Shown here: positions 30,200-44,488 of the stretch, in pieces
Layout of the letters: the number at the start of each line of letters is the position of its first letter
Position numbering within the stretch: the first letter of the stretch is position 1
NCBI GenBank assembly: GCA_004524535.1
Contig: SDNY01000013.1
Coordinates: forward strand, 1-44,642
DNA from: Promethearchaeota archaeon
Lineage (GTDB): Archaea > Asgardarchaeota > Lokiarchaeia > Sigyniarchaeales > SOKP01
Length of the DNA stretch: 44,642 nt
Direction of reading: 5' to 3'
Notes under the pieces: generated by a model
The model's input: only the letters and a program-made list of their open reading frames with translations
Database searches by the model: none
What the model was told of the DNA's origin: nothing
Program-made: the position numbers and the translations under genes

Positions 30200-30679
30200 T
30201 TGAAAAATATGGTCAATAGAGAAGAATTAACTGTCTATGATACAAGAAGGTATCCTGTTCGTCCACATGTGGGAGTTGGAATTTTATTAATCAGGAATAA
30301 CCATCTACTTTTAGTTAAAAGAAAATACGATCCAGATGCGGGTTATTGGTCAATTCCAGGGGGTCATTTAGAACTTGGCGAGAGAGTTCAAACTGCCGCT
30401 GAGCGAGAGGGTTTTGAAGAAACAGGATTTAAAGTAAAAGTTACTAAGTTAGCCGGAATTATTGATAAAATTATGTATGATGATTTAGGAAAAATTGAAT
30501 ATCATTATGTATTAGTTAATTATTTTGTCGAACAAATCGAAGGCAAATCTGATCAACCACCTAAAGCTGCGTCGGATGCACTTGAGGCTAAGTTTGTACC
30601 TTTTGAGGAGCTAAAAAAATACAAATTAACAGAGTCCTTAATCGAACTTTTAAAACAATTAAAGATTGGATTCGATTAA
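30200..30679 (+). CDS. NUDIX hydrolase
   Basis: 159 aa; Nudix box GGHLELGERVQTAAEREGFEETGF (GX5EX7REXXEEXGU-like). Confidence 0.93.
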   Translation: MKNMVNREELTVYDTRRYPVRPHVGVGILLIRNNHLLLVKRKYDPDAGYWSIPGGHLELGERVQTAAEREGFEETGFKVKVTKLAGIIDKIMYDDLGKIEYHYVLVNYFVEQIEGKSDQPPKAASDALEAKFVPFEELKKYKLTESLIELLKQLKIGFD

Positions 30680-30828
30680 GTATTGAAATTGAAAAAAAAT
30701 TTTGATTTAAATTGTAAATAATAAGCCAAAAAAATATAACTCTTTTATTATTATTTTGAAATAAGTAAGAAGTTCATAAGATAAGATTATTTAAAAATTG
30801 TTTAAGGTCTTAAGATTTGTCTTCGTTG

Positions 30829-32145
30829 ATGAAACTAGCCAAAGACGGAAAAATTACTAAAGAAATGGAAATTGTTGCAAAGAACGAGCAGCTAGAAGTA
30901 GAATTCATAAGACGAGGATTAGCAAAAGGGAGAATAATAATTCCTAAATCAAATAAGCGCGGCGAGTTGGACCCACCAATAGGCATTGGTAAAGGATTAT
31001 TTGTAAAAATTAACGCTAACATTGGCTCATCGAAGACGATTTGCGATATAGACGCAGAAGTCGAGAAAGCAAAAATTGCCGTAAAATTTGGAGCTGATAC
31101 GGTAATGGATTTGAGTACTGGTGTTACAGAGGCAGATGTAAAAAGCATTAGGAAACGAATTCTTAATGAAATCAAGGTTCCTTTAGGGACAGTTCCTATT
31201 TATCAGTCTGCTTTAAGGGCACTTGAAAATAAAGGTGCCATCATTCATATGGATGAGGATGATCTTTTTAATGTTGTAGAGGAGCAAGCAAAAGAAGGAG
31301 TAGATTTCTTTACCATTCATGTTGGAGTAACGAAAGAGATAATAAATTATTTAGAAAACCATCCCCGAACAATGGGCATAGTTTCAAGAGGCGGAACCTT
31401 CATAGCATCCTGGATTCTAAGAAATAACATGGAAAATCCTTTTAATAGACGATACGACTATTTACTCGATATGGCGAAAGAACACGATTTCACTTTATCC
31501 TTAGGTGATGGATTGCGACCTGGTTGTATCTTTGACTCCACGGATTATGCCCAAATACAAGAGCTACTTGAAATCTCAAAATTAGTAAAGCGTGCTTGGA
31601 AAAACAACGTCCAAGTTATGGTAGAAGGACCAGGACATATCCCAGCTAATGAAATTGAGAGAAATATTACCATGCAAAAATCACTATGCGATGAAGCACC
31701 CTTTTATGTTTTAGGACCACTCGTAACTGATATTGCACCAGGATATGATGATCTTGTAAGCGCAATTGGAGGTACAATTGCCGGTTTAGCTGGAGCCGAT
31801 TATCTATGCTATGTTACTCCTTCAGAGCATTTAGGTTTACCAAACAAAGAAGAAGTTAAGAGAGGAGTAATTGCATCTAAAATCGCTGCTCACGCAGTTA
31901 ATATTGCTAGATATGGCAAAAAAGCATCAAGTTGGGATTATAAAATGGATATCGCTCGAAATAATCTTGACTGGGAAGAAATGATAAACCAATCGATTGA
32001 TCCCGAATTATCACGCGAAATTCATTATCGGGATGGCAGCGCTCCAGAAGATAAAGAATGTTCAATGTGCGGAAGTTTTTGTGCAATTAAGATTTTAAAA
32101 GAAGCTTTAGAGAAAAAAAGATCGACATCAAAGAAGATTTTATAA
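30829..32145 (+). CDS. thiC: Phosphomethylpyrimidine synthase ThiC
   Basis: ORF track starts at TTG 30817; ATG at 30829 (MKLAKDGKITKEM) is a better start. VMDLSTG, MVEGPGHIPANEIERN, PFYVLGPLVTDIAPGYDD, C-terminal CSMCGSFCAIKI. Confidence 0.96.
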   Translation: MKLAKDGKITKEMEIVAKNEQLEVEFIRRGLAKGRIIIPKSNKRGELDPPIGIGKGLFVKINANIGSSKTICDIDAEVEKAKIAVKFGADTVMDLSTGVTEADVKSIRKRILNEIKVPLGTVPIYQSALRALENKGAIIHMDEDDLFNVVEEQAKEGVDFFTIHVGVTKEIINYLENHPRTMGIVSRGGTFIASWILRNNMENPFNRRYDYLLDMAKEHDFTLSLGDGLRPGCIFDSTDYAQIQELLEISKLVKRAWKNNVQVMVEGPGHIPANEIERNITMQKSLCDEAPFYVLGPLVTDIAPGYDDLVSAIGGTIAGLAGADYLCYVTPSEHLGLPNKEEVKRGVIASKIAAHAVNIARYGKKASSWDYKMDIARNNLDWEEMINQSIDPELSREIHYRDGSAPEDKECSMCGSFCAIKILKEALEKKRSTSKKIL

Positions 32146-32207: not shown

Positions 32208-33041
32208 ATGAAAAAAGTTTTAACGATTGCAGGTTCAGATTCAGGTGGAGGTGCTGGGATTCAAGCTGATTTAAAAACTTTTTCTGCTCGAGGGGTTTTC
32301 GGTATGAGTGCGATTACGGCACTTACTGCTCAAAATACCATGGGAGTGCATGGGGTTTTTGAAATCGATCCTAATTTTGTGGCAAAACAAATTGATTCAG
32401 TAATGTCTGATATGGGGGCTAACGCTTGGAAAACTGGTATGCTTTCAAATGCTGAGATTATACAGATCGTGGCAGATCGCGCAACTAAGTATAATATTCA
32501 GCTTTTAATAATTGATCCTGTCATGGTCGCAAAAGGCGGTGATCCGCTATTGAAGGCAGAGGCAACTTCTACTCTCATCTCTAAGCTTCTTCCTTTAGGA
32601 TATGTTTTAACCCCCAATCTTCATGAAGCTAAAGTTTTAACTGGAATTGATATAACAACAATAGAGGACGCACAAGAATCCGCATTAAAGATTTTTGAGA
32701 TGGGAGTTAAGAATGTGGTAATAAAAGGAGGACATTTGCCAAATATCAATGCAGCTATTGATATTCTTTATGATGGAAACACTTTTACCGAATTTCGAGT
32801 GCCTCGTATTAATACAAATAACACCCATGGCACAGGATGTACATTTGCTTCTGCATTAGCTGCAGAATTAGCAAAGGGAAATAATATAATAAAAGCAGTT
32901 CATATTGCTAAAGCATATTTAACCCAGGCGATTAAAAGTGCAGATAATCTCCATATTGGAAAAGGTCATGGACCAACAGATCATTCTCAAGGAACTATCG
33001 TGGATGTTGATCTTTCTATTGTTAATGTGAGAAAATTATAA
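32208..33041 (+). CDS. thiD: Hydroxymethylpyrimidine (phosphate) kinase ThiD
   Basis: 277 aa; TIAGSDSGGGAGIQADLKTFSARGVFGMSAITALTAQNT, NTHGTGCTFASALAAELAKG. Confidence 0.96.
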   Translation: MKKVLTIAGSDSGGGAGIQADLKTFSARGVFGMSAITALTAQNTMGVHGVFEIDPNFVAKQIDSVMSDMGANAWKTGMLSNAEIIQIVADRATKYNIQLLIIDPVMVAKGGDPLLKAEATSTLISKLLPLGYVLTPNLHEAKVLTGIDITTIEDAQESALKIFEMGVKNVVIKGGHLPNINAAIDILYDGNTFTEFRVPRINTNNTHGTGCTFASALAAELAKGNNIIKAVHIAKAYLTQAIKSADNLHIGKGHGPTDHSQGTIVDVDLSIVNVRKL

Positions 33042-33623
33042 TTGAATGAGCTTAATTAAGTGGAGTATAATTTCGAGTTTCTTAATAATATCTTTAGAAT
33101 TTTCACCAAATAATCTCATCATGGGTTCTTTTCCCATTGCCCCTTTATCCCAGATAATATCCGGAATTCTTCCCTTTTTATGTATATTTTCTTTAATCAA
33201 CCATTGCATAGTTGAATATTCTTTTTTCTTAACTTCTTCTGGTTGCTCTTCTCTAAGTATTTCTTGTAATTCTAAGTCTGAATCATCTTGAATTGATTTA
33301 ATTAATTTGGGTATATATTTTAAATTCATAACAAAATTAATTGAATTTTCAAATTCTTTCGCTGTAAGTATTAATCTAGCAGTATGATCAGAAACTCCAA
33401 ATTTAATTTCACCTGAAGCCTTGGGGAACCCATCTATTATCGTAATCCTTCCCTCAATTCCAGCAATTTCGCTTTTATTTTTTGCGTTAGGTAATGAACC
33501 TGAAATATTAGTGCGAACTTCTGGTATTAATTTACTAAAACTTTTGTTAGATGAAAAAAAATTATAAATTTCCTTGATTTGATTGATGATATCTAATTTT
33601 TCTTTAGGAAGGGATAAATTCAT
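33036..33623 (-). CDS. thiN: Stand-alone ThiN-type thiamine-phosphate synthase
   Basis: 195 aa; IPEVRTNISGSLPNAKNKSEIAGIEGRI, KFGVSDHTARLIL, TMQWLIKENIHKKGRIPDIIWDKGAMGKEPMMRLFG, typical of the ThiN domain usually fused to ThiD in archaea. Confidence 0.85.
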   Translation of the reverse strand: MNLSLPKEKLDIINQIKEIYNFFSSNKSFSKLIPEVRTNISGSLPNAKNKSEIAGIEGRITIIDGFPKASGEIKFGVSDHTARLILTAKEFENSINFVMNLKYIPKLIKSIQDDSDLELQEILREEQPEEVKKKEYSTMQWLIKENIHKKGRIPDIIWDKGAMGKEPMMRLFGENSKDIIKKLEIILHLIKLIQL

Positions 33624-33640: not shown

Positions 33641-34225
33641 TTATTTTACTCGATCAAAAGCCCATTTGGCTTTTTCGCTTAATCCAAGGGCTTCATAAGA
33701 TTTACCAATATACAAAAAAGCGTCTGGAAAATCAAAATCTTCTTTTGTAAGTTTAAATAAATGACCAATAGCCATATCATATCGTCCTTTTAAATAATAA
33801 GTTTTTCCTCTTAAGAAAAGAATTGTATGTCTATTATCCTTAGTTAAATCTTGACTATCAAATATGTTTAACTTTTTGAGAGCCTTATCATATTCTTGTT
33901 TCTCTAGAAGATTGGTAATCACATCAACTTGTTTTAAAAACACCATTTTTTCAGCAACTTGCTTAATTCTTGCTCTTCTCTGCTCTAAAAACGTATCTTC
34001 AAGAGAAATATCTTTCTCTTTTTCTTTTTGTTCTAAAAGGGCTTTAATTTTTGCCATTGTATATGAATTATAATCTTTATCACATAATGGACATTTTGGA
34101 GAGTGAAGTGACCACTCTGCTAGACAAGATTCGTGAACGGGATGCCCATTTGGACAACTGTATGACTTTTCAACATCTTTTCCACCATCTCCTATATCCA
34201 TATGGCAAATCAAACAAGAAGGCAT
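33641..34225 (-). CDS. RING-H2 finger protein with C-terminal TPR-like helices
   Basis: 194 aa; C4-x2-C7-x16-C24-x3-H28-x2-H31-x2-C34-x10-C45-x2-C48 fits the RING-H2 consensus; C-terminus has TPR-like repeats. Confidence 0.85.
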   Translation of the reverse strand: MPSCLICHMDIGDGGKDVEKSYSCPNGHPVHESCLAEWSLHSPKCPLCDKDYNSYTMAKIKALLEQKEKEKDISLEDTFLEQRRARIKQVAEKMVFLKQVDVITNLLEKQEYDKALKKLNIFDSQDLTKDNRHTILFLRGKTYYLKGRYDMAIGHLFKLTKEDFDFPDAFLYIGKSYEALGLSEKAKWAFDRVK

Positions 34226-34368
34226 ACGCGGCTTATTTATATATAATTTTATTTATTATAAACGTTTAATAAAAAACATATTATAATCATAATCTTAATA
34301 ATTTATAACAATATTTTTTTTCCTAAGATTTTTAATACTAATAGATTTTTATTTATATTTAATAAACA

Positions 34369-34382
34369 ATTTGAATTCAAAT
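34369..34382. promoter_or_regulatory. 14-bp perfect palindrome ATTTGAATTCAAAT upstream of the Roadblock-GTPase gene
   Basis: Perfectly symmetric, about 26 nt before the start at 34409, within a divergent gap. Palindromes of this kind can arise by chance in AT-rich DNA. Confidence 0.25.
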
Positions 34383-34408
34383 AATTACAATGTTATGAGA
34401 TTAGTCTT

Positions 34409-35968
34409 ATGTCGTTTAATATAACAAAATCATTTAATATACTCTTTAAAAATTTCCTGGAAATTAGCAGTGAAGTAGTTGCATTGATAGTCTCTGATAG
34501 AGGAGGTCTTATTGTTGCGGGGGAAACCTCATCAGATGTTAATATGGAAATCATTTCAGTTTTAACTGCGATTGTGAATCCGATTTTAGACAGAATTCGT
34601 AATGAATTCGCCTTTAAAAAATTTGGAACCGCTTCTTTCGACACAGATGAATATCGGCTTTTATTTATTTCTGTTGATGAAAACATAACTTTAAGCGTAG
34701 TATTAACCACGTTAGCCTCCGTTGATAAAGTTTCACCTTACGCTTACTTCCTTGCAGAGAAAACTGCGCAGATTGTCAATGCCGAAGAGGGTGATGTTAT
34801 TCAGCTTGAGATCCCAAATTTTGAATACGAGGGAGAAACAGTAGAAAGAATTAAAGACCAGATTTATCAATTGAGATTAGAAAGTGGTGGAACGTATCGT
34901 TTCAAATTTATTATTATAGGGGATCATTATGTTGGAAAGACTTCAATCGTGCGACGCTACGTTGATAGAAGGTTCTCTAAAGACTATCGGGCGACAATAG
35001 GTATAAATATAATCACACATTCGTTTGATTTTTTTGAAAATGAAATAAATTTATCTTTATGGGATATAGGGGCACAACAGTATTTTAAACGATTTAGGCG
35101 TACATATTATATGGGTTCACAAGCTGCTTTTATCGTTTTTGACTTAACTAACCGTGAATCTTTTGAGAATGTAAAAATTTGGTTCGATGAATTAATTAAT
35201 TTTTTAGGGAAAATGGATCTTCCAATTGTTATTGTAGGAAATAAAACTGATTTGAAAGAAAAAAGAGAAATTAGTTATGAAGAAGGCGTTTCCTTAGTAC
35301 CAGAATTAGCTGAAAAAGGAGTATCTAAAATTTCTTATATCGAAACGAGCGCATTGACGGGAGAAAATATTAATGATGCATTTAGTTTAATATCATATCA
35401 TTACATAGTGAAAAGTAAAGAAAAAGAAGAAGAATTATTAAGAAAGAGTTTAGAGGACGGGATTAACTGCATTTTAAGAGATAGAGAGAAATTAACGCTT
35501 ACCTTTATCACGGAAAAAGCTTTTTGGAATCCCGGCTTACAAATCATGTCTGAATTAATTGAGTTAGGAAAATATGTAAAAATAAAGGATACAAAAGAAG
35601 AAAAGATCTTTGAATATCCAAACGGTTTAATTCTAAAAAGTCATCTCACTAATAATTTTGATTTATCTGATTCCGATGGTGCCTTTTGCATATTTGATGC
35701 GCGCGGCAAAGAGCATATTGATCCAAAGTGGAAGGAAAAATTGATTGAAATCATTGAAAGTATACAAGAAAATAAAGTTGTATTAATAGGTGTAAGAGTG
35801 GACCCTGAAAAAATGGACTGGTCAGTTTTAATGGAAGAATTTGATGTAAACGAGCAATTAGAGAGAAAGATGGTATCGCTCTTATTCTTTAAAATTGGGA
35901 TTGAATATCGCTTAGAAATCTACGATCAACTAGAAGTCATGTTAAATACAATAAAAACAATCAGATAA
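34409..35968 (+). CDS. Roadblock/LC7-like domain + Ras/Rab-like small GTPase fusion with C-terminal extension
   Basis: 519 aa; N-term ALIVSDRGGLIVAGETSSDV (Roadblock-like); GDHYVGKTS (G1), ATIGINI (G2), WDIGAQQ (G3), NKTD (G4), ETSALTG (G5); about 160-aa C-terminal domain. Confidence 0.9.
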   Translation: MSFNITKSFNILFKNFLEISSEVVALIVSDRGGLIVAGETSSDVNMEIISVLTAIVNPILDRIRNEFAFKKFGTASFDTDEYRLLFISVDENITLSVVLTTLASVDKVSPYAYFLAEKTAQIVNAEEGDVIQLEIPNFEYEGETVERIKDQIYQLRLESGGTYRFKFIIIGDHYVGKTSIVRRYVDRRFSKDYRATIGINIITHSFDFFENEINLSLWDIGAQQYFKRFRRTYYMGSQAAFIVFDLTNRESFENVKIWFDELINFLGKMDLPIVIVGNKTDLKEKREISYEEGVSLVPELAEKGVSKISYIETSALTGENINDAFSLISYHYIVKSKEKEEELLRKSLEDGINCILRDREKLTLTFITEKAFWNPGLQIMSELIELGKYVKIKDTKEEKIFEYPNGLILKSHLTNNFDLSDSDGAFCIFDARGKEHIDPKWKEKLIEIIESIQENKVVLIGVRVDPEKMDWSVLMEEFDVNEQLERKMVSLLFFKIGIEYRLEIYDQLEVMLNTIKTIR

Positions 35969-41088: not shown

Positions 41089-42153
41089 TTATTTTTTTAA
41101 TTTATTTCTTAATTTTTCCGAGATTAGATCTCCCATTTCTTTAGTTGAGAGAGTTTTTAAATTAGGATTTTCAATGTCAATTGTTCGCCCCTCTTTAAGA
41201 CCTTCTTCAACGGCATTCTCGATTTCGTTTCCTATTTTGGATTGGAATGATTCCTCCATCATTAATTTTACGCTTAGAATCGTGCCAATTGGATTTGCGA
41301 TATTTTTTCCAGCGATATCGGGAGCTGAACCATGTATTGGTTCGTACATAGAAACTTTATTTGGATGAATATTCCCACTTGAAGCCATACCTAAGCTTCC
41401 AATCAGAAATGCGGCCTCATCACTAATTATGTCTCCAAACATATTTCCAGTGACGACGGTTTGGTAGGCATATGGTGTTCGGATGAGCCATTGACAAAAA
41501 GCATCAATATAGATATCCTCGATCTTTATATTGGGATATTTTGAACCAATATCATGAAATATTTTACGCCATAGCTGGCTGGGTTTTAAAATATTAGCCT
41601 TATCAACAGATGTCACTTTTTTATGACCCTTCCTTTTAGCAAATTCAAAAGCGAATTTGATAATCCGTTCACATCCTTCACGGGTATAATGCATTATGTT
41701 CTGTGCTTCATTTTCCTTTAAATACCCGATATTTTTATATAAACCCTCTGTATTTTCCCTGACAAAATAAATATCAATTCCATCACCAATAAACTCATCC
41801 CTTAAAGGACATCGATCCCTTAATGGTTCATAAAGTTTTATTGGTCTTAAATTCACATATAAATCTAATCCCTGTCTAATGTTCAAAATTGCAATTTCGG
41901 CTACTCCTTGAGGCAATCCAGGAATTCCAATTGCCCCAAATAACAATGCATCCGAATTTTTAATTGTTTCAAATGATTTTTCAGGTAAACTTTCACCATG
42001 TTTTTTCCATACTGCACCACCCGCAGGAGCTTCTTTGAATTCAAACTCAAAATCAGTATATTCATCAATAATCTTTAGAATCTTTATACCCTCTGGAATA
42101 ACTTCTTTACCTACACCGTCTCCTTCTGTAAATGCGATTATTTTTTTCATCAA
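41089..42153 (-). CDS. Isocitrate/3-isopropylmalate dehydrogenase family protein
   Basis: 354 aa; AFTEGDGVGKEVIPEG, NLRPIKLYEPL, FVRENTEGLYKNIG, NMFGDIISDEAAFLIGSLGMASSGNI. Confidence 0.92.
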   Translation of the reverse strand: MMKKIIAFTEGDGVGKEVIPEGIKILKIIDEYTDFEFEFKEAPAGGAVWKKHGESLPEKSFETIKNSDALLFGAIGIPGLPQGVAEIAILNIRQGLDLYVNLRPIKLYEPLRDRCPLRDEFIGDGIDIYFVRENTEGLYKNIGYLKENEAQNIMHYTREGCERIIKFAFEFAKRKGHKKVTSVDKANILKPSQLWRKIFHDIGSKYPNIKIEDIYIDAFCQWLIRTPYAYQTVVTGNMFGDIISDEAAFLIGSLGMASSGNIHPNKVSMYEPIHGSAPDIAGKNIANPIGTILSVKLMMEESFQSKIGNEIENAVEEGLKEGRTIDIENPNLKTLSTKEMGDLISEKLRNKLKK

Positions 42154-44266: not shown

Positions 44267-44488
44267 ATGAAAAAAATGGCTAAAAAAGTTTTTGCTTGGA
44301 GTCCAGTCCGAAAACTAATGAAGGATAACGGCGCTGAAATGGTTGCTCGAGATGCTGTAGATGCATTAATTGATTATTTAGAAAAAACAGCTAAAGGTGT
44401 CACAAACAAAGCTTTAGAAATGACTCGACACGCGGGTCGGAAGAAATTGACCCTCGAGGACATGGACTTGGCAATGAAATTAATGTAA
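44267..44488 (+). CDS. Archaeal histone-fold protein
   Basis: 73 aa; SPVRKLMKDNGAEMVARDAVDALIDYLEKTAKGVTNKALEMTRHAGRKKLTLEDMDLAMKLM. Confidence 0.95.
   Translation: MKKMAKKVFAWSPVRKLMKDNGAEMVARDAVDALIDYLEKTAKGVTNKALEMTRHAGRKKLTLEDMDLAMKLM

Follow-up and report, generated by a model that had tools for sequence, protein, structure and literature searches.

A RING-H2 and TPR protein of Lokiarchaeota, encoded beside thiamine genes, as a possible ubiquitin ligase or adaptor for thiamine acquisition

RING E3 ligases are thought to have diversified along with eukaryotes. Among eukaryotic TPR E3 ligases, CHIP/STUB1 and TTC3 carry a TPR domain and a RING or U-box on a single polypeptide (helices join the two in CHIP), while Vps11/18/39/41 of HOPS/CORVET, which have Rab GTPase partners, combine a RING-like zinc finger with a helical repeat. 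In archaea, the small RING finger protein srfp is the E3 encoded in the ubiquitin operon of Caldiarchaeum subterraneum, and mutation of the Ile, Trp or Arg equivalent to those discussed below impaired ubiquitylation (PMC5654768). Here we describe a Lokiarchaeal protein of 194 aa with an N-terminal RING-H2 finger and a C-terminal TPR domain (RING-TPR below), encoded in a stretch of 44,642 nucleotides that we call the window. Like srfp, it has a RING of the RING-H2 class with conserved E2-contact Ile and Trp and comes from an archaeon with E1, E2 and ubiquitin-like genes; unlike srfp, it carries an additional helix and a TPR domain, is encoded at a thiamine locus rather than in a ubiquitin operon, and lacks the linchpin Arg. 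It shares its domain classes with CHIP/STUB1 and TTC3, but the order is reversed, with the RING first, and there is neither a carboxylate clamp nor a demonstrated sequence relationship. The Arkadia/RNF165-type domains, which give both the top PDB sequence match and the top fold match of the RING, are eukaryotic, have no TPR and possess the linchpin Arg. The Vps proteins, similar in pairing a zinc finger with a helical repeat, are far larger, contain a beta-propeller and bear the RING at the C-terminus, and just 2 of 30 RING-TPR members match zf-Vps39_C, weakly. The literature collection searched contained no paper on the RING-TPR family or on a link between thiamine and RING proteins.

Table 1. 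Features of the RING-TPR locus (window coordinates).
Feature	Position	Strand	Basis
RING-H2-TPR protein, 194 aa	33641..34225	(-)	ORF and conserved family
RING-H2 finger, ligands C4 C7 C24 H28 H31 C34 C45 C48	34082..34216	(-)	sequence, Pfam, alignment, RING-only model
Long helix joining RING to TPR (residues 54-108)	33902..34066	(-)	AF2 model
TPR domain (residues 96-194; some 2.5 repeats)	33644..33940	(-)	sub-threshold profile match, AF2, Foldseek, alignment
Intergenic region, 183 bp, common to the divergent RING-TPR and GTPase genes	34226..34408	.	sequence
Divergent Ras/Rab-type GTPase, extended at both termini	34409..35968	(+)	PF00071; Rab14/Rab1 profile matches
ThiN (thiamine-phosphate synthase)	33036..33623	(-)	PF10120 E=5e-50
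ThiD (HMP/HMP-P kinase)	32208..33041	(+)	matches ThiD part of L067 ThiDN protein
ThiC (HMP-P synthase)	30817..32145	(+)	PF01964 E=4e-183
NUDIX hydrolase, far side of thi genes	30200..30679	(+)	PF00293

The zinc ligands of the finger follow the C3H2C3 pattern C4-x2-C7-x16-C24-x3-H28-x2-H31-x2-C34-x10-C45-x2-C48, so that the RING-H2 consensus with exact spacing that an earlier note on this DNA had claimed was recovered with the same eight ligands over the same span. The window protein scores 28.7 bits against PF13639 (zf-RING_2), above the Pfam cut-off of 27.3; the same profile matches all 30 aligned orthologs, and shuffling the protein 200,000 times never produced a RING-H2 pattern. In the PDB, the closest sequence matches of the RING are Arkadia/RNF165-type RING-H2 domains (E about 0.001).

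The AF2 model, built from 30 orthologs (pLDDT 90.2, pTM 0.59), consists of the RING, the helix of residues 54-108 and five more helices, the relative orientation of the RING and TPR halves being uncertain. Foldseek with the full-length model returned solved TPR domains, including MamA, designed TPRs and, at rank 37, the TPR of STUB1. The helix-turn-helix repeats follow the G8/Y11/A20-type consensus in the model, the alignment and the Foldseek matches, which bears out the TPR-like helices proposed earlier, with the TPR part of the window protein falling below the Pfam cut-off. Because the TPR matches swamped this search, the RING was folded alone. No non-RING zinc fold came up: the PDB top 50 of the RING-only AlphaFold model (pLDDT 83.6) are all RING/U-box E3 domains, the best being RNF165 with UbcH5b~Ub, and the cross-brace fold is a prediction modelled without metal, with modest single-match E-values (best 1.6e-3). 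Within the TPR domain K141 and K175 are near-invariant and W188 and R192 invariant. A CHIP-like carboxylate clamp was considered for the family and rejected, being absent at the canonical TPR1 positions.

The Asgard origin given in the earlier note was confirmed: the window genome is Lokiarchaeal, the best-matching named relative is Candidatus Lokiarchaeota LW60_4 (92% protein identity), and RING-TPR orthologs lie in Lokiarchaeal genomes. Of 58 relatives, 41 gave an ortholog or a partial match, and the protein also matches 51 named Lokiarchaeota records, the 52nd match being a bacterial TPR fragment. In the conservation alignment of 52 rows (the window and 51 loci), the eight zinc ligands are invariant, save for C4 and C7 in a single row that is N-terminally truncated before them; W38, P46 and Y52 are invariant as well, with Ile or Val at position 6. 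Conservation is highest at the TPR end (residues 166-194, TPR3), where it exceeds that of the RING, and lowest in the long helix up to residue 95 (mean entropy 2.05 bits). Compared with its 92% identical G004 ortholog, the window protein gave dN and dS of 0.035 and 0.12 (YN00) or 0.037 and 0.096 (NG86), a dN/dS of about 0.29-0.39, and as judged by these substitution rates the gene is under purifying selection. In the G042 ortholog (L064:8801-10900 (-)), which has 699 aa, the RING-TPR part is preceded by a long linker that looks disordered, and a further RING-like finger sits at the N-terminus. In G048, the translation of a minus-strand open frame of 744 aa (L075) looks, by eye, Roadblock-like at the N-terminus, with repeats resembling TPRs, a stretch like a winged helix and a RING-H2.

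The ubiquitin-like, E1 and E2 genes for which the earlier note had proposed to look are indeed present in the genome, together with JAMM and other RING genes, in clusters apart from the RING-TPR gene. On contig C123 lie genes for E1, JAMM, ubiquitin-like proteins and a 690-aa RING protein, plus an E2 gene broken into two ORFs; C181 encodes a GG-ending ubiquitin-like protein together with E1, E2 and JAMM; C24 has an intact E2 and an E1 fragment; and C84 a further GG-type ubiquitin-like protein. The C24 E2 reads as having HPN, the Cys within NICLDL, and the loops YPFAPP and WTPS. The two ORFs of the C123 E2 (L046:9740-10296 (-)) comprise 85 and 94 aa, relatives having an undivided ortholog of about 180 aa; the split may be an artefact of assembly or a genuine frameshift. 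Two other RING-like fingers were seen in these surroundings, one at the C-terminus of a 403-aa membrane protein adjoining the JAMM gene of C123 (L046:7670-8881 (-)), the other in a 371-aa protein close to the C24 E2 gene (L047:9712-10827 (+)). The RING-TPR gene itself lies on another contig, C38, and not within a Ub/E1/E2 operon as srfp does.

The earlier note had proposed a candidate E3-type ligase or adaptor, and the features of the RING bear on this in both directions. The hydrophobic positions that bind E2 (I6, as Ile or Val, W38 and P46) are present and conserved in the alignment, and along with the RING fold and the ubiquitin system of the genome they speak for the proposal. Against it, the linchpin Arg or Lys after the last Cys is not conserved: the window protein has Asp49, and Arg occurs in 17 of the 52 rows, so that E3 activity is plausible but unproven. 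Since other Lokiarchaeal RINGs likewise have no linchpin Arg, including one in G056 that is encoded close to Ub and E2 and has Asn, the missing Arg weakens the case for E3 activity and does not exclude it. Overall, we consider the chances for and against catalytic E3 activity to be evenly balanced.

What the earlier note overlooked is a wider association with genes of thiamine biosynthesis and uptake. In the window, 17 bp separate the RING-TPR gene from thiN, which follows on the same strand, and the two are probably co-transcribed; elsewhere in the window's family the gene following may be thiDN. Since gene-order conservation inside one family is weak evidence alone, control pairs were measured. 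In the window's family the RING-TPR gene adjoins thiN/thiD in 49 of 50 loci, with a median gap of 46 bp, and the GTPase gene in 48 of the 48 Lokiarchaeal loci with both, whereas the control pairs are looser (Thi-ThiC 26/42, ThiC-NUDIX 12/34). Another tight pair is formed by the GTPase and the homolog of window 41089-42153 (27/29). In L064, L067 and L070, as in the window, a NUDIX homolog flanks the thi module on its far side, suggestive of a single ancestral locus in which the thiamine module was exchanged. No TPP riboswitch was found at the thi loci at the gathering threshold. A 73-aa ORF (window 44267-44488; 73-98% identity) is retained near the locus in most relatives.

In the sister family f2 the thiamine genes are different ones. 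The RING-TPR gene of G048 adjoins Thi4 (TIGR00292, above cut-off), with ThiDN and ThiC further out; in G040, ThiW (PF09512), a thiamine-precursor transporter, lies one gene away, with ThiN and ThiC further out; and the G044 ORF at this position looks like a ThiW-type protein of the same kind. In four further genomes (G037, G042, G046, G049) the gene stands beside an ABC transporter, the binding protein of which clears the TIGR01254 (thiamine subfamily) cut-off in every case. Among 15 genomes tested, these were the only four with such a match, in each the sole such binding protein and located at the RING-TPR locus. ThiC and ThiN were not detected in the four, which as MAGs may owe absences to assembly gaps, G042 with its single-contig assembly being the strongest case. 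The transporter falls below the ThiB/ThiP/ThiQ equivalog cut-offs, so its substrate, presumably thiamine, is inferred. In the tree of RING-TPR proteins the ThiW/Thi4-associated members form one clade (99/97) and the four ABC-associated members another (99/96); because of the latter, the tree indicates that the association with the ABC transporter is one evolutionary switch, not four. A counterexample is the distant G038 ortholog, which is not near thi genes. Genomes of f4 have thi genes without a good RING-TPR ortholog, and G050 has ThiC with no RING-TPR ortholog and no ThiN.

The earlier note had also pointed to a neighbouring Roadblock-GTPase gene. The Ras/Rab core and the adjacency were upheld, the gap being 100-273 bp and the GTPase gene at times tandemly duplicated; the Roadblock part is weak (no Pfam match, one Roadblock structure at E=0.11 for the N-terminal domain), and the adjacency is confined to one family. 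By eye, the conserved C-terminal 180 residues of the window GTPase (34409-35968) look like a degenerate second GTPase domain. Co-loss of the two genes was considered, six genomes of the family having neither at close similarity, and was dropped as evidence because ThiC stands at a contig end in G012 and G020, which best explains the apparent co-absence there, and because the search of G001 found no ThiC.

Taken together, a link of RING-TPR to thiamine seems rather probable to us. The reading that we favour, a ubiquitin ligase or adaptor of the E3 type serving thiamine acquisition, needs this link and E3 activity to hold at once, and we place it somewhat below an even chance. The main rival is a non-catalytic scaffold, in which the finger is structural or dimerising and the TPR assembles thiamine enzymes, a transporter or a regulator with no ubiquitin transfer. 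The unconserved linchpin, the location outside the ubiquitin clusters and the higher conservation of TPR3 than of the RING all favour it; a purely structural finger, however, would not need I6, W38 and P46, which are almost as conserved as the zinc ligands, and the genome encodes E2s with RING-binding loops. On balance we regard such a scaffold as possible but unlikely.

The GTPase neighbour raises another reading, that of an effector or regulator of this Ras/Rab-like protein in membrane or signalling functions, with the thiamine genes as incidental neighbours. A RING-H2 with a helical repeat does resemble the make-up of the eukaryotic HOPS/CORVET Rab effectors, and there are the two weak zf-Vps39_C matches, but none of the f2 loci examined has the GTPase beside the RING-TPR gene, thiamine genes being the neighbours there, and the co-absence explained by contig ends is no evidence of a unit; we hold this to be improbable. 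Still further down stands a general quality-control E3 of the CHIP/STUB1 type, its TPR holding chaperones, its RING tagging clients and its location incidental. The same domain classes connected by a long helix, and the STUB1 TPR among the fold matches, would fit, but position 5 of TPR1 is Ile/Val/Leu and position 9 mostly Glu, not a carboxylate clamp, and the recurrent thiamine context would be left without explanation, making this very improbable.

As an E3-type ligase or adaptor for thiamine acquisition, RING-TPR would hold a thiamine enzyme, transporter or regulator in its TPR groove with the near-invariant lysines, while the RING would dock the charged E2 (E2~Ub); the client would be tagged, and its turnover, level or membrane sorting would track thiamine status. 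Gating or localisation of the tagging step may fall to the divergent GTPase in the window's family. A plausible parallel is found in eukaryotes, where nutrient transporters are turned over via ubiquitin. The thiamine link offers defined candidate clients (ThiC, ThiN, Thi4, ThiW, ThiBPQ) instead of an orphan RING. More doubtful is the wider proposal of an archaeal nutrient-dedicated ubiquitin ligase, by which Lokiarchaeota would control vitamin B1 synthesis and uptake through ubiquitin, the ligase staying in place as the adjacent thiamine module is swapped among biosynthesis genes, Thi4, ThiW and the ABC transporter. If true, pathway-specific ubiquitin control would already exist in Asgard archaea, the archaeal relatives of eukaryotes.
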